In this document: one piece after another, positions 26,691-33,291 of the stretch
How positions within the stretch are numbered: the stretch's first letter is position 1
Layout: the number at the start of each line of letters is the position of its first letter
Assembly (NCBI GenBank): GCA_025353585.1
Contig: JANXOM010000144.1
Coordinates: 1 to 40,505 of the forward strand
Direction of reading: 5' to 3'
Length of the DNA: 40,505 nt
Origin: Deltaproteobacteria bacterium
Lineage (GTDB): Bacteria > Myxococcota_A > Polyangia > Haliangiales > Haliangiaceae
Translations under genes and position numbers: made by a program
The notes under the pieces: generated by a model
Seen by the model: only the letters and a program-made list of their open reading frames with translations
Databases searched by the model: none
What the model was told of the DNA's origin: nothing

Positions 26691-29555
26691 ATGTCTCTGT
26701 GGTCGCGCCTCGAGCGGCGGATCAACGACCTGGCCGACGGGCTGGTGCTCGACGATTACCGCGACCAGCTCGTGTCGGCGCGGCAGCTCGTCAGCGAGGG
26801 CAAGCTGCCGCAGGCCATCGAGGTCCTCGAGGCGCTGCTCCGCGCGAAGCCCGATCACGGGCAGGCGCTGATCGAGCTCGGCGAGGCGCTGATGGCGGCC
26901 CGCGAGCCGCTGCGCGCGCGCGCGGCGTTCGAGAAGGCGGTCGCGGCGCGGCCCGGGGATCCAGCCGGGCTCGTCGGGCTGGGGCTCGCGCTGGTGGTGC
27001 TCGGCAGCTACGAGCCGGCCATCGCGCCGCTCGGGCGGGCGATTTCGGAGGCGGCCGGCGACCGGCAGATTTTGGCCGCGGCGTACCGCGGGCTCGGCGT
27101 CGCGTGGCGGCGGCGCGGCGATCTCGACAAGGCGATCCGCGAGCTGCGCAAGGCGGTGGCCGAGGACGGCGCGGACGTGGACGCGCGCGCGCAGCTCGGC
27201 GAGGCGCTGGTCGCGGACGGCGGGCCGTACGACGAGGCGCTGCGGCACCTCGAGCGCGTCGCGTCGCCGGCCGATGCCGCGCCCGCGATGGCGCTGTACG
27301 CGCTCGGTCGCCTCGCGCTGATCGAGGGCACGCCGGCGCTGGCGGAGGCGAGGCTCGCGGCGGCGCGGGCGCGGCTCGGGGATGCGGCGGCCTCACCGCT
27401 GGATCAGGCGCTGCGGTTCGACGTGCTGATCGCGCAGGGCGACGCGGCGCTCGCGGCGGCGGACGCGGTGCGCTCGCACGGGTTCTATCTCGAGGCGCTG
27501 CAGCTCGAGCCGAAGCGGATCGACGTGCACGCGCGGATCGCGTCGGCGCACCGGTCGATCGGTAACCTCGACGCGGCGCTCGCGAGCTACGACCGCGTCC
27601 TCGGCGCCGGGGACGTGGTGCTCGAGGTGCTGCGCGCGGCGGTGGACACGGCGATCGCAGCGGGCGACGCGGCGCGCGAGCTCGCGTGGGGCAACGATCT
27701 GCTCGCGCGCGCGCCGGATGACGTGCGGGCGCTGGTCGCGCGCGGCGCGGCGATGATGGCCACGCAGCCGCAGGACGCGCGGACGTACCTCGACCTCGCC
27801 GCCGCGCGCGATGACGTCGACGCGCACGTGCTCCTCGCGCAGCTCGCGCTCGGGGGTCACGAGCCGGGCCGGGCCGCCGCCTGCGCGCTGGCCGCGCTGC
27901 GGGTGGCGCCGCACCACGCGCGGGCGCGGCAGCTGCTCGCCGATGCGCGGGCGGCCGAGGTGCCGGCCCCGGCGTCGCCGGACATCGCGGAGCTGGCGCG
28001 CTACGTCGAGCACGTGATGGCGAGCCGGCGCGAGCTCGGGCACTTCGTCGGCGACGTGGCGCGCGCGGCCGGTAACCTCGACTCGCCGCTGCTCGTGACG
28101 GTGATGGGCGAGTTCTCGAGCGGCAAGTCATCGTTCGTCAACGCGTTCATCGGTGCCGACGTGGCGCCGACGGGCATCACGCCGACGACCGCGACGATCA
28201 ACGTGGTGCGCTACGGCCGCGAGCGCGGCGGGCGCATCGTGGCGCGCGACGGGACGGCCCTCGAGCTCGGCTGGGACGCGCTGATGGCGCACCTGCGCGC
28301 GCTCACGCCGGCCGCCGCGAGCGCGATCGAGCGGGTCGAGATCCTGGTGCCGCTGCCCCAGCTCGAGAAGATTCATATCGTCGACACGCCGGGCTTGAAC
28401 TCGATCCAGCCCGAGCACGAGGCCACGGCGCGGGCGTTCATCGCGCGCGCGGACGCGGTGGTGTGGGTGTTCACGGCGTCGCAGGGCGGCAAGGCGAGCG
28501 AGAAGAAGGCGCTCGCGTCCATCCAGGCCGAGGGCAAGCGCGTGCTGGGCGTGCTCAACAAGGCGGATCAGCTGACGGCCGAGGACACGGCCGAGGTGAT
28601 CACGTTCATCACGGGCGAGCTCGGCGAGCTGGTGGAGACGATCGTGCCGGTGTCGGCGCGGCGGGCGCTCGCGTGGAAGCGCGATCCGGCGTGTAAAGAC
28701 GGCGATGGGAACTGGCGCGCGCTGACGGGCGCCCTCGAGGAGCGGTTCTTCGCGCAGGCGAGGCAGCTCAAGCGTGACGCGTGCGCGCGGATCCTGCGCA
28801 ACGTCACGGCCGAGGCGAGCGCCGTCATCGCCGCGTCGCGCGGGCGCGCAGAAGAAGCGGCCGCGGCGGCGCGGGTGGCCCGCGACGATCTGACGGCGAG
28901 CGCGCGGCGGTTCACGCTGGAGACGGTCATCGCGGAGCGCAAGGCGCTGTCGGAGCACACGGTCCTGCTCTACCGGCGCGCCGCGCGCGAGGTGCTGGAC
29001 CTGGTGCGGCCGCGGCGGCTGCCGTTCGCGGCCCACAGCGCGACGGCGGCGGATCGCGACTACCTCGTGGCGCTGCTGTCGTCCGGGTTCGAGGCGGCGA
29101 TCGAGGGCGGTCGCGCGCGGGTCGCGACGGATCTCCTCGCGCGGAGCCGGACGGGTGAGGCCGCAGCGCGGGCGATGGGCGCGGCGCTCGGCGTGGACGT
29201 GCTCGGCGATCTCGAGCGCGTGGCGAGCGATCGGATCGGCCTGGCGCTGTCGCGGGTCTTCGATCGCACGCGCGCGTACGTGCTCGGGTACCTCGAGGGC
29301 GGGCACGTCGATGCGTTCTTTCGCAATGACGTCCCGCGGCTCGAGCTGGCCGAGGACGCGGTCTACCACGCGCTGTTCCGGGCCTCGCCGAACCTCGATC
29401 GCGAGCTCGGAGAGCCGCTGGAGCGCGCGGCCGGCGAGGCGCTGGCCGCGCTGGCGCGGCGGATCGATCACTGGGGCGCCGTGGTGGACGTGCAGGCGTT
29501 CGATCTCGAGGTCGGCATCGGCCGGGCCCTCGAGGTCGCGGCATCGCGGTTGTAA
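26691..29555 (+). CDS. TPR-dynamin fusion GTPase
   Basis: The protein is 954 residues from ATG 26691, 9 nt after the first dynamin. Residues 1-430 are tandem TPR units (for example KLPQAIEVLEALLRAKPDHGQAL and RRGDLDKAIRELRKAV). Then comes a full GTPase: G1 GEFSSGKS 473-480, G2 APTGITPTTAT, G3 DTPG 565-568, G4 NKAD 623-626. The C-terminal 270 residues are helical, without an obvious long hydrophobic paddle. Dynamins often work as unequal pairs, so this soluble, TPR-equipped member may recruit partners while the first one inserts in the membrane. TAAGCT lies 6 nt before the start, so some internal initiation is possible. Confidence 0.92.
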   Translation: MSLWSRLERRINDLADGLVLDDYRDQLVSARQLVSEGKLPQAIEVLEALLRAKPDHGQALIELGEALMAAREPLRARAAFEKAVAARPGDPAGLVGLGLALVVLGSYEPAIAPLGRAISEAAGDRQILAAAYRGLGVAWRRRGDLDKAIRELRKAVAEDGADVDARAQLGEALVADGGPYDEALRHLERVASPADAAPAMALYALGRLALIEGTPALAEARLAAARARLGDAAASPLDQALRFDVLIAQGDAALAAADAVRSHGFYLEALQLEPKRIDVHARIASAHRSIGNLDAALASYDRVLGAGDVVLEVLRAAVDTAIAAGDAARELAWGNDLLARAPDDVRALVARGAAMMATQPQDARTYLDLAAARDDVDAHVLLAQLALGGHEPGRAAACALAALRVAPHHARARQLLADARAAEVPAPASPDIAELARYVEHVMASRRELGHFVGDVARAAGNLDSPLLVTVMGEFSSGKSSFVNAFIGADVAPTGITPTTATINVVRYGRERGGRIVARDGTALELGWDALMAHLRALTPAAASAIERVEILVPLPQLEKIHIVDTPGLNSIQPEHEATARAFIARADAVVWVFTASQGGKASEKKALASIQAEGKRVLGVLNKADQLTAEDTAEVITFITGELGELVETIVPVSARRALAWKRDPACKDGDGNWRALTGALEERFFAQARQLKRDACARILRNVTAEASAVIAASRGRAEEAAAAARVARDDLTASARRFTLETVIAERKALSEHTVLLYRRAAREVLDLVRPRRLPFAAHSATAADRDYLVALLSSGFEAAIEGGRARVATDLLARSRTGEAAARAMGAALGVDVLGDLERVASDRIGLALSRVFDRTRAYVLGYLEGGHVDAFFRNDVPRLELAEDAVYHALFRASPNLDRELGEPLERAAGEALAALARRIDHWGAVVDVQAFDLEVGIGRALEVAASRL

Positions 29556-29578
29556 CTGCGATCTCGCTTCCCTATGAT
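29550..29578 (+). promoter_or_regulatory. Sigma-70 promoter of rnhB
   Basis: TTGTAA (29550-29555), a 17-nt spacer and TATGAT (29573-29578, five of six consensus). The expected transcription start is at about 29585, the first base of the GTG codon, giving a leaderless mRNA. Confidence 0.55.
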
Positions 29579-29584
29579 CGCGGC

Positions 29585-30283
29585 GTGGCAGGCAAAGCAG
29601 CGAAGCTGACGCTCGGCATCGACGAGGCCGGCCGCGGTCCGGCGATCGGCCCGATGACGATGGGCGCGGTGGCGCTCGATGCAAAGGCCTCGGCGGCGCT
29701 GACGCGGGCGGGGCTGCGTGACTCGAAGGCGTACGGCGCAGGCGAAGATGCGCACGCGATCCGCGTGGAGCTGGCGGCGAAGATCCGCGAGCGCGCGACG
29801 TTCGTGATGACGTGCGTGGTGCACCACGACGAGATCGACCGCCGCGTGGCGCGCAACGAGCTCAACGTGCTCGAGCGCGAGGTGGCGACGCGGATGATCG
29901 ACTCGGCCCTCGGCGCGACGCCCGGCGTCCATCGGATCATCGCCGACGGCAAGCGCATGTTCGCGCCGCTGGGGGCGCGCTACGACGTGTTCGAGTCGCG
30001 TGACCGCGCCGAGGAGCACCACGCCTCGGTGGCCGCCGCCTCGGTGGTGGCCAAGGTCCTGCGCGACGAGCTCTACGCCGGCATCCGCGCGCGCTACGAG
30101 GGCGAGTTCGGCGCGATCCGCGGCGGCGGCTACGCGAACGCGGCGACCCGGGCGTTCGTCGAGGCGTACGCGACCAAGTACAAGAAGTTGCCGGACGAGT
30201 TCCGGCGCACCTGGCCCTGCCCGTACGTCGCCCACCTCGTCGGCAACGTGCGCCCGCCGGCCCCGCAGGCCGAGCTGTTCTGA
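29585..30283 (+). CDS. rnhB: Ribonuclease HII
   Basis: The protein is 232 residues from GTG 29585. It cuts RNA in RNA:DNA hybrids and single ribonucleotides in DNA. Catalytic Asp-Glu are in LGIDEAGRGPAIGPM; the third acidic residue is probably the Asp of IIADGKRMF and the fourth in the EEHHASVAAASVVAKVLRDEL stretch. The N-terminal motif DEAGRGPAIGPM resembles archaeal/eukaryotic RNase HII more than typical bacterial RnhB. The usual SGYPS segment is replaced by GGGYANAATRAFV. The start coincides with the predicted transcription start. It lies between the dynamin unit and a large palindrome. Confidence 0.92.
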   Translation: MAGKAAKLTLGIDEAGRGPAIGPMTMGAVALDAKASAALTRAGLRDSKAYGAGEDAHAIRVELAAKIRERATFVMTCVVHHDEIDRRVARNELNVLEREVATRMIDSALGATPGVHRIIADGKRMFAPLGARYDVFESRDRAEEHHASVAAASVVAKVLRDELYAGIRARYEGEFGAIRGGGYANAATRAFVEAYATKYKKLPDEFRRTWPCPYVAHLVGNVRPPAPQAELF

Positions 30284-30295
30284 CGCCCGGGTGAG

Positions 30296-30480
30296 GAGCG
30301 CTTGCGCGTCACTTACCGCAGAGTCGCCGAGCACGCAGAGAGGGAGGGGCAGAACCTGAGGGGTTGGCACCAGGTGTAGCCGGTTCGCGGATCCAGCTGC
30401 CCGTGGCGCCAACCCCTCTCGATCTGCTCCTCACTCTCGGCGTGCTCCGCGCCTTTGCGGTAAGCGGCGCGTCAGCGCTC
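30296..30480. repeat. 185-bp near-perfect palindrome abutting the GxxExxY gene
   Basis: Arms 30296-30368 and 30408-30480 are each 73 nt and, aligned by hand, agree at about 60 of 73 positions. They begin GAGCGCT, share CTTACCGCA and GAGCACGC, and end GAGGGGTTGGC. Pairing continues more weakly into the centre, leaving a short loop around GGTTCGCGG. The left arm starts 13 nt after the rnhB stop; the right arm contains the last codons and TGA of the GxxExxY gene. The arm has a phased pattern (ACCGCnAAGnCGC, then GAGCACGC) like the smaller palindrome in the his cluster. It could be a mobile intergenic element or a bidirectional terminator for the convergent genes. Confidence 0.85.
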
Positions 30481-30876
30481 ACCCGTCGGTGTCCGCACGA
30501 CCCGGCGAAGGCCCGCCGTCAGGACGGGGACGTTGAAGTTGATGAGCAGCCCCAGTTGCAGCTCGCAGGCCTTCAAGTAGGACAACAACTGCGCACGATG
30601 AAGCTCGCCGAGCGCCGCCACGGCCTTGAGCTCGACGACCAATTGACCGTCGATCAACAGGTCGATGACCCCGTCGGAGATCGGCTGATCCCGGTAGAGG
30701 ACCGGGACGGGCACCTGGGACCGGGCCGGGAGGCCGATGTGGGCCAGCTCGATGAGCATGGCGCGCTCGTAGATGGCCTCGGAGAACCCGGGGCCGAGGC
30801 GGCGGTGGACCTCGATGGCGGCGCCGATGGTGCGGTGCGTCAGGGCGTTGATGTCGTCGGACGGCTCGACGGGCAT
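30472..30876 (-). CDS. GxxExxY protein (PD-(D/E)XK nuclease superfamily)
   Basis: The protein is 134 residues, typical for the family. GFSEAIY is the name-giving GxxExxY motif. Before it stands THRTIGAAIEVHRRLGPG, and after it the nuclease-like core GVIDLLIDGQLVVELKA, whose D...ELK matches PD-(D/E)XK enzymes. LINFNVPVLTAGLRRVV is the usual ending. The function is unknown. Family members are often multi-copy and scattered between unrelated genes, as selfish elements would be. The stop codon lies inside the right arm of the 185-bp palindrome. The gene follows the sigma-partner gene by 33 nt on the same strand and may be read through from it. Confidence 0.92.
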   Translation of the reverse strand: MPVEPSDDINALTHRTIGAAIEVHRRLGPGFSEAIYERAMLIELAHIGLPARSQVPVPVLYRDQPISDGVIDLLIDGQLVVELKAVAALGELHRAQLLSYLKACELQLGLLINFNVPVLTAGLRRVVRTPTGER

Positions 30877-30909
30877 GCCGCGCGTATCGGCCGGCAGACG
30901 CGCCGGTTG

Positions 30910-31830
30910 CTACGGCGAGGCGAGGCACTTCGCGATGGCCGCGTCCTTGGCCACGGCCGTGCGATAGAACGCGGCGTCGCGGGCGCGTAGGCGTTCGACC
31001 ATCGTGCGGACGGCCGCGCAGTCGCCGCGCTTCGCCGCGGCCTGGCACTCGCGGAGCTGCTGGACGAGGACCGTCTCGCTGCGCCCCTGCGCTGCACCTG
31101 GCGCGACCGGCGCCGCGTCGCCCGGCGCGGTCGGATCGGCCGATGGCCGCGCCATCGGGGCGTTGGCGGACGGGCCGGCGAGGGTGGTGGGCTGCTCCTC
31201 GAGGGACTCGTCGTCGAGGTTCGCGCCGAACCGACCGCTCGCGGACTTGCTCTTCACGCGCGACTCGTCCGGCGGGCTCGGCCTGGACGGCGCCTTCTTC
31301 ATCGGCGCGTGGTTGACCGGCGGCGGCGGCGGCGGCGGCGGCGGCGCGGGCGCGGCCACGACCGGCGCGCTCCCGGGTGCTACCGCGGCAGGTGCGTCCC
31401 GCGCGACCGCTTCCTTCTTGTCCGTCGCTCGCACCTGATCCGTCGCGAGCAACCCGCCTGCCCTGCCGTCGTCGTGCCCCGTCGCCGGCGCGACCATCGG
31501 TGCCGTCTGCGCCGCGCGCGGCTCCTCGGTCGTCAGCCCGCCGTGCGACGTGACGAGCGCGGCCGTCCCCGCCACGACCACGATCGTCGCCAGCGCGAGC
31601 ACCGGCGGCCGGCGCAAGAGCTCGGTGACCGCTGTCCACGCGCGCTTCCATGCGGGCGCCGGCTGCGTCGCCGCGACCTGCGCGCGCGCCGCCGCCATCA
31701 GCGCCGCCATGCCGCGCCCCGACGGCTCCTCGTCTCGCATCGACAGCCACACCGAGCGCATCCCGCGCACCGACTCGTCATCCCCACCGAGATCGTGATC
31801 GTCGTCGTCGCCGCCGCCCGCTCCGGTCAC
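30910..31830 (-). CDS. Single-pass membrane protein, probable partner (anti-sigma-like) of the ECF sigma factor
   Basis: The protein is 306 residues from GTG 31830, overlapping the sigma-factor stop by 4 nt (GTGA). The acidic N-terminus (Asp/His-rich) is cytoplasmic. One membrane helix is at about 76-93 (VLALATIVVVAGTAALV). Then comes a long Ala/Pro/Lys-rich periplasmic region with a nine-proline run encoded by a CGG repeat. A C-terminal Cys-containing helical domain follows (QLRECQAAAKRGDCAAVRTM). Gene order and topology fit an anti-sigma factor. The zinc anti-sigma motif (HxxxCxxC) is missing, so this role is an inference from position only. Confidence 0.7.
   Translation of the reverse strand: MTGAGGGDDDDHDLGGDDESVRGMRSVWLSMRDEEPSGRGMAALMAAARAQVAATQPAPAWKRAWTAVTELLRRPPVLALATIVVVAGTAALVTSHGGLTTEEPRAAQTAPMVAPATGHDDGRAGGLLATDQVRATDKKEAVARDAPAAVAPGSAPVVAAPAPPPPPPPPPVNHAPMKKAPSRPSPPDESRVKSKSASGRFGANLDDESLEEQPTTLAGPSANAPMARPSADPTAPGDAAPVAPGAAQGRSETVLVQQLRECQAAAKRGDCAAVRTMVERLRARDAAFYRTAVAKDAAIAKCLASP
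31318..31344. repeat. (CGG)9 trinucleotide repeat
   Basis: Nine CGG triplets encode the nine-proline run of the membrane protein on the minus strand. Slippage here would change the length of the linker in steps of one residue without breaking the frame. Confidence 0.8.
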
Positions 31831-32429
31831 AGCGCGGCCTTCGCGAGGTCCTTGTACTCGTCGAGCTCGAGCCGCAGCTTCTCGAGCGCGTAGCGCATGC
31901 GGCTCTTCACCGTGTTCTCGGGCACGCCGACCACGTCCGCGATCTGCTTGAACGGCATGTCCAGGAACTCGCGCATCAAGAACACTTCGCGCTGATCGTC
32001 CGACAGCGCCGCGATCGCGCGGTGCATCGTCTCGTGCAGCTGCTTGTTGACGTTCTTGCGGTCACTTGCCATCTCGTTGCCAGGGAGGACGTCGAGCAGC
32101 GTGCCGCTCTCCTCGTCCGCGCCGATCGGCGCGTCGAGCGAGGCGTGCTTGCGATGCTTGCGTCTCCTCGTCTGGTCAACGCACAGGTTGCGCGCAATGG
32201 TGTAAAGCCACGTCGTAAACTTGGCTTGTCGCTTGTAAGCCTCCGCGCCCTTGATGACGCGCATGAAGGCCTCCTGCAGGAGATCCTCGGCCGTCTCCTT
32301 GTCGCCGATGAAGCGCAGGATGAAGTTAAAGACCGGCTTCCGGTGCCGCGAGAGCAAGATCTCGAACGCGGCAACCTCGCCCTTCTGGTACAGGACCATC
32401 AGGTCTTCGTCGGCTTGGTCCTTGAACAT
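31827..32429 (-). CDS. ECF-type RNA polymerase sigma factor
   Basis: The protein is 200 residues from ATG 32429. Region 2 (about 10-80): FNFILRFIGDKETAEDLLQEAFMRV, then KFTTWLYTIARNLCVDQTRR, which melts the -10. Region 4 (about 135-190): LSDDQREVFLMREFLDMPFKQIADVVGVPENTVKSR, a helix-turn-helix that reads the -35. A linker of about 35 residues separates them (LDAPIGADEESGTLLDVLPG). It controls an unknown extracytoplasmic stress or envelope response. The overlapping downstream gene is its likely membrane regulator. mutM lies 37 nt upstream on the same strand. Confidence 0.93.
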   Translation of the reverse strand: MFKDQADEDLMVLYQKGEVAAFEILLSRHRKPVFNFILRFIGDKETAEDLLQEAFMRVIKGAEAYKRQAKFTTWLYTIARNLCVDQTRRRKHRKHASLDAPIGADEESGTLLDVLPGNEMASDRKNVNKQLHETMHRAIAALSDDQREVFLMREFLDMPFKQIADVVGVPENTVKSRMRYALEKLRLELDEYKDLAKAAL

Positions 32430-32466
32430 GCTCGTGTTTTCGAGGCGCCGACACTAACACAGGCCG

Positions 32467-33291
32467 TTACGCCGCCTGACACGTTGGACAGTAGTAGGTC
32501 GCTCGACCTTGGTGAACCGTCCGCTTGATCAGCGTCTTGCAGCGTAAACACGGGAGGCCGTCCCGGTCGTACACCCACAGAAACTCCTTGTTGCTCCCCT
32601 CCGAGCCGTCCGCGGCGATGAAGTCGCGCAGCGTGGTCCCGTGGTTCTCGAGGGAGCGCACCAGCGTCTCGGTGATCGCCGCCGCCAGCGCCGTGGCCTT
32701 CGCCGCCGTCAGGCGGTGCGCTCTCATCGAGGGCCGGATCTTCGCGCGCCAGAGCGCCTCGGATGCGTAGATGTTCCCGACGCCCGCGACGACGCTCTGA
32801 TCGAGCAAGAACGTCTTGAGCAGCGCCTTCTTGCCCTTCGCCCGCGCGAGCAGCGCCACCGGATCGACGCCATCGTTCAGCGCGTCCGGGCCGAGGACCG
32901 CGAGGCTCGCGTGGGCGCGCTCCGCCGCCGTCTCCACCACGTCGACCTGACCGAACCGCCGCGCATCGGCGTACCGCAGCTGCCGCGCCCCGAGCCCGAT
33001 CACCACGTGCGTGTGCGCCTCCCGCTCTTGCGCCGACGGCACGACGCGCAGGCGGCCCGTCATGCCGAGGTGGACGAGGATCGACTTGCCCGCGTCCGTG
33101 TCGACGAGCAGGTACTTTCCGTGGCGACGGACCGCCGTGATCGTCGCGCCCGCGAGCATCTTCAACGCGGCCAGCGGCGGCTTGCGCTGCATGTGCAGCC
33201 CGACCCCGCGGCTCCACGCATCGGTGATCGTCGCCCCGACAGCCGGCGCGAGCGAACGGCGAACGGTCTCGACCTCGGGGAGCTCGGGCAC
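32467..33291 (-). CDS. mutM: Formamidopyrimidine-DNA glycosylase
   Basis: The protein is 274 residues from GTG 33291. It removes 8-oxoguanine and ring-opened purines and nicks the DNA by beta/delta-elimination. Catalytic Pro2-Glu3 are in the N-terminal MPELPEVETVRR. The catalytic Lys is in RRHGKYLLVDTDAGKSILVHLGMTGRL. The DNA-binding helix-two-turn-helix includes VVAGVGNIYASEALWRA. The zinc finger at the C-terminus is complete: PCLRCKT and YYCPTCQ. All key residues are intact. The gene starts 8 nt after rsmA ends and probably belongs to its transcript. Confidence 0.97.
   Translation of the reverse strand: MPELPEVETVRRSLAPAVGATITDAWSRGVGLHMQRKPPLAALKMLAGATITAVRRHGKYLLVDTDAGKSILVHLGMTGRLRVVPSAQEREAHTHVVIGLGARQLRYADARRFGQVDVVETAAERAHASLAVLGPDALNDGVDPVALLARAKGKKALLKTFLLDQSVVAGVGNIYASEALWRAKIRPSMRAHRLTAAKATALAAAITETLVRSLENHGTTLRDFIAADGSEGSNKEFLWVYDRDGLPCLRCKTLIKRTVHQGRATYYCPTCQAA

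Follow-up and report, generated by a model that had tools for sequence, protein, structure and literature searches.

A small PD-(D/E)XK nuclease gene and a palindrome of short tandem units point to a candidate REP-like mobile element

We analysed a window of 40,505 bp (contig JANXOM010000144.1 of assembly GCA_025353585.1, a Deltaproteobacteria bacterium of the Haliangiaceae), in which a palindrome lies between convergent genes. To its left is an RNase HII-like gene (rnhB, 29585-30283, plus strand), whose NCBIfam matches fall below their cut-offs. To its right is a GxxExxY gene for a small PD-(D/E)XK nuclease of 134 residues (30472-30876, minus strand), identified from its ORF, profile matches, conserved residues and an AlphaFold2 model. 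Beyond it follow an ORF in the ORF list that has no NCBIfam match (30910-31830, minus strand) and a gene that is sigma-factor-like by reading of its ORF and 90-92% identical in the same-genus relatives where it was seen.

The repeat search showed the palindrome to be 185 bp long, with two 91-nt arms that are 79% complementary around a 3-nt centre. The left arm (30296-30386, plus strand) starts with GAGCGC, its array of units being ACCGCAGAG-T-CGCCGAG (30315-30331) and onward, and the right arm (30390-30480, minus strand) carries ACCGCAAAG-G-CGCGGAG on the minus strand (30461-30445). A preliminary description of the locus had given the arms as 73+73 nt; the palindrome is real, but those 73 nt are the outer parts of the 91-nt arms, whose middle pairs in part too. 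When 197 nt around the palindrome were folded as single-stranded DNA, the energy was -76.2 kcal/mol, whereas shuffled sequences averaged -42.75 (z -10.6; 0/200 shuffles as good). The stem score was 43.5, compared with 18.3 at the 99th percentile of 1350 background 300-bp windows, and the unit pattern matched twice in the window against a chance mean of 0.02. The overlap of gene and arm claimed earlier was confirmed: 9 bp (30472-30480) are common to both, with the stop codon (30472-30474) within the right arm, which thus supplies the last two codons of the gene and its stop. A simple terminator scan found no T-tract stem at the palindrome. There was no Rfam match at the palindrome and no rRNA match across 28500-32500, and a reading of the locus as an rRNA intron was dropped because the site lies outside rRNA, between the RNase HII-like gene and a protein ORF.

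The ORF encodes an intact GxxExxY protein (TIGR04256, 128.9 bits, cut-off 35; PF13366, 130.2 bits, cut-off 22). PDDEXK_3 was its sole Pfam match at E ≤ 0.001; Pfam revealed no transposase domain in the gene, and the protein is not a HuH (Y1) tyrosine transposase. The D...ELK core noticed earlier is present (D72, E82-L-K84), and E33, D72, E82, K84, Q96 and Y100 were invariant in 30 aligned GxxExxY proteins, the window's included, with K84 absent in 2 of 17 homologs of a more diverse set (L056, L064). Within the PD-(D/E)XK superfamily, the RecB/Cas4 pattern consists of E, D, ExK and QxxxY, and we take the six residues to be this catalytic pattern. The AlphaFold2 model has a mean pLDDT of 93.9, with residues 131-134, the last two of them encoded by the palindrome, at 67. 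Its best Foldseek match was lambda exonuclease (1avq; E 0.028, probability 0.82, TMq 0.46), none being found at E ≤ 0.001. PADLOC Cas4 models matched the protein weakly, and a search of the PDB yielded no sequence relative at E ≤ 1. The likeness to Cas4, RecB and lambda exonuclease consists of the E, D, ExK, QxxxY pattern and of weak profile and fold matches, whereas GxxExxY differs in being a stand-alone protein of ~125 aa with its own repeat partner. Values of dN/dS were 0.02-0.13 in 14 GxxExxY pairs, which share some genes and in which dS is partly saturated; these low values indicate purifying selection, by which the protein was kept working in the sampled lineages. The searched literature, as far as its text was accessible, contained passing mentions of GxxExxY proteins and no role for them, and neither PDDEXK_3 nor six unit strings occurred in it. 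No title or abstract opening described a pairing of nuclease and palindrome, most subscription papers and bioRxiv preprints being outside the search.

We used rnhB to locate the site in relatives. Leaving out the window's own genome, 15 genomes of the genus were available, and 14 have this gene. In the 350-1500 bp available downstream of rnhB, none of the 14 had a GxxExxY match (tblastn, E ≤ 1e-3) or a palindrome of the window's type; the two stems present in L334 are unrelated to it. In 9 of the 14, the locus still contains the downstream ORF, the sigma-factor-like gene or both. The distance from the rnhB stop to the stop of the next gene was 7-100 bp in five of them (L329, L330, L332, L335, L336) versus 626 bp in the window (30284-30909), a stretch holding gene and palindrome whose ends, as insertion boundaries, are approximate. 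Since both are absent beside rnhB in relatives and the gaps there are short, the comparison is most simply explained by a lineage-specific insertion of gene and palindrome, which probably arrived together, perhaps as one event. The preliminary description is supported in that gene and palindrome are linked and that both are missing from this site in 14/14 relatives. Neither a stem scoring ≥30 nor the palindrome family was seen when same-genus DNA was sampled (665,658 bp), a sample of little power and too small to decide the matter.

The palindrome is one of many in its genome (8.0 Mb in 437 contigs, 90% complete), in which one GxxExxY gene was found. A BLAST search gave at least 65 matches, representing at least 20 separate places at E ≤ 1e-10, window included; the places were counted by hand from the table and are a lower bound, as 40 of 104 candidates were scored. 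Thirteen copies have a common core, which typically runs from the GAGCGC start through TTACCGCAGAG and then two more units. These cores align with a median score of 70.9, whereas the flanks mostly do not (median 14.3 on the better side versus 10.8 for random). In 12 aligned copies a 47-pair stem is kept; at 8 of these pairs one copy or more has both partners replaced, and two of the 12 have an extra 9-bp unit. L003 (C240) and L012 (C307) also resemble each other in the right flank. The copies are thus not all independent insertions, and some may have been moved or duplicated together with neighbouring sequence. The three-unit pattern matched 40 times in this genome, some matches being of a second unit variety. 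This ACCGCCAAG-type variety, distinct from the window's ACCGCAGAG family, was seen in pattern hits such as C15, C38, C111, C117, C164 and C169.

The surroundings of GxxExxY genes in general were examined at 221 loci, drawn from the Myxococcota and Bacteroidota samples (best or picked matches), paralogs in named genomes, plasmid-collection records and a many-phyla set formed by the best 80 of 510 confirmed GxxExxY. They yielded 196 distinct genes with enough flank, the window gene not among them. Arms were compared with 99 dinucleotide shuffles of the same flanks, p ≤ 0.01 meaning that no shuffle was as good. By this test 158 of the 196 genes lie between inverted arms (z > 4 in 153) and 38 have no significant arms. 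Significant arms were found in 17/28 Myxococcota, 56/69 Bacteroidota, 63/73 named loci, 13/13 from genomes G282, G287, G289 and G293, 6/7 from other named genomes and 3/6 plasmid records; the controls gave 0/25 for rnhB-centred windows (Myxococcota) and 4/215 for other windows. Raw arm-score thresholds, which had given 56/78, 142/196 and, for four-helix loci, 23/30, were set aside as composition-blind and replaced by the shuffle tests because 8/29 rnhB loci in GC-rich genomes passed the threshold of the 142/196 screen. The association between GxxExxY genes and arms is well supported.

The arms consist of short units in tandem; read inward, they typically have the form CACC(A/G)CAGAG-N-C(A/G)CAGAG-N-C(A/G)CAGAG or a variant of it, and the arm motif first noticed in the window generalises to CRCNRAG and sister units. 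In the 142 genes of the composition-blind screen, the median outer-to-outer size was 510 bp, and in 44 the ORF reached its stop only after the 3' arm had begun, as in the window. Complete hairpins within 300 bp were counted, also composition-blind, on the 5' side of 15/196 genes and on the 3' side of 14/196, ~2 being expected for each; a hairpin without arms occurred at only 5/196, in 3 of them on the 3' side. The window gene itself has no second, paired arm (p 0.77). The window is thus a minority architecture, with a complete palindrome at the end of the gene and no arm opposite. The form that the preliminary description took as the one to look for, a palindrome fused to the 3' end, fails in that literal sense, since a complete hairpin within 300 bp on the 3' side accompanies only 14/196 genes. 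The usual arrangement is instead a gene placed between two inverted arms (158/196), and this wider association of gene and arms holds.

Four unit types were distinguished, CRCNRAG (AG), CRCNRAT (AT), CRCGAAA (AAA) and TGATT, which accounted for 113, 13, 3 and 5 of the 142 genes, respectively, with 8 others. A tree was made of 143 proteins, those 142 and the window's, and 135 rows were labelled, the 8 "other" rows being left out; since it rests on the composition-blind set, a few GC-rich rows (e.g. L046, L050, L061) may be false. Unit type required 8 changes on this tree, compared with a mean of 20.5 and a minimum of 18 when labels were shuffled (0/1000 as low). The signal persisted within Bacteroidota (51 rows; 7 versus 9.8 changes, 4/2000 as low) and outside it (83 rows; 5 versus 10.8 changes, 0/2000 as low). 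Some clades with one unit type cross phyla: Myxococcota L042 and L056 group with Bacteroidota L279 (CRCGAAA), and Chloroflexota L148 and L217 with Bacteroidota L284, L285 and L292 (TGATT). A further clade of this kind was recognised by eye within the AG type, with CGCAAAG arrays that lack the ACC start (Myxococcota L055; Chloroflexota L161; Bacteroidota L164, L244, L253 and L264). The pattern is weakened by AT units, which originated repeatedly within AG clades, and by the poor resolution of the tree (18/140 inner branches starred). One Candidatus Thiosymbion genome has five GxxExxY genes, one a fragment, with the arm words CACAGAG, CGCAGATT, CACGGAT, CGCAAAT and CGCAGAG, which represent two unit types. 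In these comparisons, the unit word tends to accompany the nuclease rather than the host. In Candidatus Thiosymbion G282 (L101, L154-L158, L205, L206), many palindromes with several unit words were observed, some of them arranged as regularly spaced, BIME-like tandem runs.

GxxExxY was present in 34/282 sampled Myxococcota and 120/247 sampled Bacteroidota, mostly in one to few copies per genome. In the same 282 Myxococcota, repeats were counted as matches to a three-unit pattern with ACCGC as first unit, genomes being treated as independent, which they are not. At least one match occurred in 15/34 gene-bearing versus 24/248 other genomes, and at least three in 11/34 versus 8/248 (Fisher p 6e-7); a rank test without the window's genome still gave p 3e-8. 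The CGC-form motif was absent from 19/34 gene-bearing genomes. Six motif-rich genomes had no gene that could be found (G071, G281, G093, G209, G213, G179); G071 and G281 are of the same genus as gene-bearing G102, and the remaining four stay exceptions. In the other two of the 8, G085 (C21) and G014 (C145), the matches were mostly exact 9-bp tandem runs (ACCGCCAAG / ACCGCCGAG) that mimic the unit pattern and are probably coding repeats.

Presence and absence were also seen at other sites. In Bacteroides finegoldii the element lies between radA and the gene of an FAD protein, genes that are 13 bp apart in Parabacteroides distasonis; Phocaeicola massiliensis has a different gene at the site, which speaks neither for nor against. 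In Sphingomonas parapaucimobilis it lies between fabD and fabG, its 3' arm inside the annotated ORF, and S. paeninsulae and Rhizobium indigoferae have no element there. The compared relatives are distant and their junctions too diverged for an exact junction or a target-site duplication to be read. Candidatus Thiosymbion relatives and genus g91 were discarded as empty-site comparisons, their flanks being non-syntenic or multi-copy. The genes of L162 and L218 are 93% identical, and the similarity stops within the arms. By reading, L272 shows a tandem duplication of gene and arms followed by further arm copies, and an insert inside a repeated element (L203) was set aside as an IS200-like transposon. 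One query protein matched 7/72,556 plasmid records and 0/50,697 phage records, and no relative was among 34 pattern candidates in viral contigs; on these counts viral carriage was rejected. Two PLSDB records, NZ_OY725952.1 (Bacteroides; radA and thrA) and NZ_OY725753.1 (Parabacteroides; radA), are apparently misassigned pieces of chromosome.

A second class of genes has a similar setting. Four-helix genes matching TIGR02436, which we equate with the S23p genes of rRNA intervening sequences, lie between short-unit inverted arms at 19/30 Bacteroidota loci, those being the best-scoring ones. The window's genome has 6 TIGR02436 matches, with arms at 2 of 5 tested (L019, L020; C139, C228). The units of these arms (L298-L327; L019, L020) are unlike the window's, e.g. 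TTAGCTATTAGC or AAACGC. At the four-helix paralogs L021, L022, L023 and L024 of the same genome, a palindrome of ~200-240 bp (stem scores 26-34) was seen ~100 bp upstream. The four-helix and GxxExxY elements may be branches of one kind of element.

These observations point to a previously unrecognised nuclease-and-palindrome mobile element. We propose, with a probability of roughly 0.6, that gene and palindrome form a REPtron-like family in which a RecB/Cas4-like PD-(D/E)XK nuclease takes the place of the HuH transposase. The GxxExxY nuclease would recognise short tandem units of a class particular to it, the units that make up both the inverted arms around its gene and the stems of palindromes that stand alone at other places of the genome. 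It probably nicks or cuts units that are folded back on one strand, on the lagging-strand template or in a cruciform, and host repair or replication would then place copies, with or without the gene, at new intergenic sites. No covalent strand-transfer step is known for PD-(D/E)XK enzymes, and the model therefore has to call on host repair.

The resemblance to REP/RAYT in logic that was suggested at the outset is borne out by this pairing. As in REPtrons and REPINs of the TnpA-REP type, one or few nuclease genes per genome occur beside cognate dispersed imperfect palindromes, as was found here, and the types of enzyme and palindrome co-vary. On the other hand, the GxxExxY enzyme is PD-(D/E)XK and not HuH, its palindromes are ~70-300 bp long and made of short tandem units, and its gene, usually enclosed by inverted arms, is sometimes present in several copies that differ in their unit words. 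Because the enzyme is not HuH, the element is not a REPtron, though it may work like one. In PMC8266576, tnpA-REP genes are described as mostly single copy and often correlated in presence with REP abundance, the mechanism of dissemination being unresolved. MITEs and small insertion sequences likewise have inverted ends, non-autonomous copies and presence/absence at a site, and here inverted ends were found in 158/196 relatives and absence from the site in 14 same-genus genomes; in contrast to them, GxxExxY elements have no known transposase, their arms are arrays of tandem units and no target-site duplication was read.

We considered the possibility that older palindromes spread otherwise and that the nuclease cuts gene-less ones of its unit class, so that repair copies the gene between the arms. 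Such homing would account for the position of the gene between arms, where a gene-less copy has its loop, for a unit type that accompanies the protein clade, for gene-less copies outnumbering genes in the window's genome, and for the rarity of GxxExxY in plasmids and its absence from the phage records and viral candidates. Yet the window gene stands outside a complete palindrome. Moreover, homing predicts gene-less palindromes at empty sites, and the relatives' sites at the window locus, in Parabacteroides and in Sphingomonas paeninsulae and Rhizobium have neither gene nor palindrome. We therefore regard homing as unlikely, though it fares best among the alternatives.

It is somewhat less likely still that the nuclease is a domesticated host factor that processes repeat hairpins in fork repair or chromosome structure, its linkage to the repeats being kept by host selection. 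Purifying selection, the one to few copies per genome and the rarity in plasmid and phage collections fit such a role, which would resemble the housekeeping-like behaviour described for TnpA-REP in PMC8266576. It does not sit well with the patchy presence of the gene in Myxococcota and Bacteroidota, with several unit words in one genome, with presence/absence at the window locus or with the tandem duplication of gene and arms at L272.

An explanation at the RNA level appears improbable. Here the palindrome would be a transcription terminator, the simple alternative raised in the preliminary description, or an RNase III-type processing stem as in 23S rRNA intervening sequences, and the nuclease gene its cargo. 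The convergent genes on both sides are what a terminator would have, and the arms of TIGR02436 genes recall intervening sequences, which are ~430-nt elements with inverted ends and a small S23p ORF in the loop. In Coxiella, PMC4990558 reports a 23S rRNA intervening sequence with an S23p ORF, a 28-bp terminal stem and tandem heptamers before the ORF. The GxxExxY elements that were read, however, are flanked by protein genes, code for a nuclease and also occur as dispersed gene-less copies. A terminator is disfavoured by the ~20 dispersed copies, by the absence of the palindrome at the site in relatives of the same gene order and by the lack of a T-tract stem in the simple scan or an Rfam match at the palindrome. 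RNA processing would also leave unexplained why the unit type tracks the nuclease.

The genome of the window also has an apparent ordinary REPtron, since the RAYT-like genes L293, L294 and L296 (C323, C69, C421) stand beside their own, different ~400-bp palindromes (stem scores 86-105). That RAYT-type HuH transposases move the window's palindromes and that the link with GxxExxY is coincidental is very improbable: there are 7 Y1_Tnp matches in the genome, 6 above cut-off, and of 5 loci tested, L294 alone has inverted flanks that are significant, but no unit motif was present there or at any of the five examined of the seven loci, the odds that any of ~30 palindromes would by chance adjoin the sole GxxExxY gene of an 8-Mb genome are ~1 in 10,000 by our own arithmetic, and the gene/arm link recurs across phyla.

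Returning to the REPtron-like reading, a wider form of it is possible, although we would give it less than even odds: an undescribed class of selfish elements in many phyla, in which a lone PD-(D/E)XK nuclease propagates palindromes of its own recognition words and co-evolves with them, with four-helix (S23p-type) genes as a second protein class with the same arm design. If true, this second class would help explain the long-puzzling rRNA intervening sequences. GxxExxY occurs in about half of the sampled Bacteroidota and an eighth of the sampled Myxococcota, and a cognate DNA partner makes its role directly testable, the arms providing a natural set of matched nuclease/target pairs. The findings suggest GxxExxY as an owner for a class of unexplained palindromic repeats, and also a rise of REP-like systems from more than one type of enzyme chemistry.
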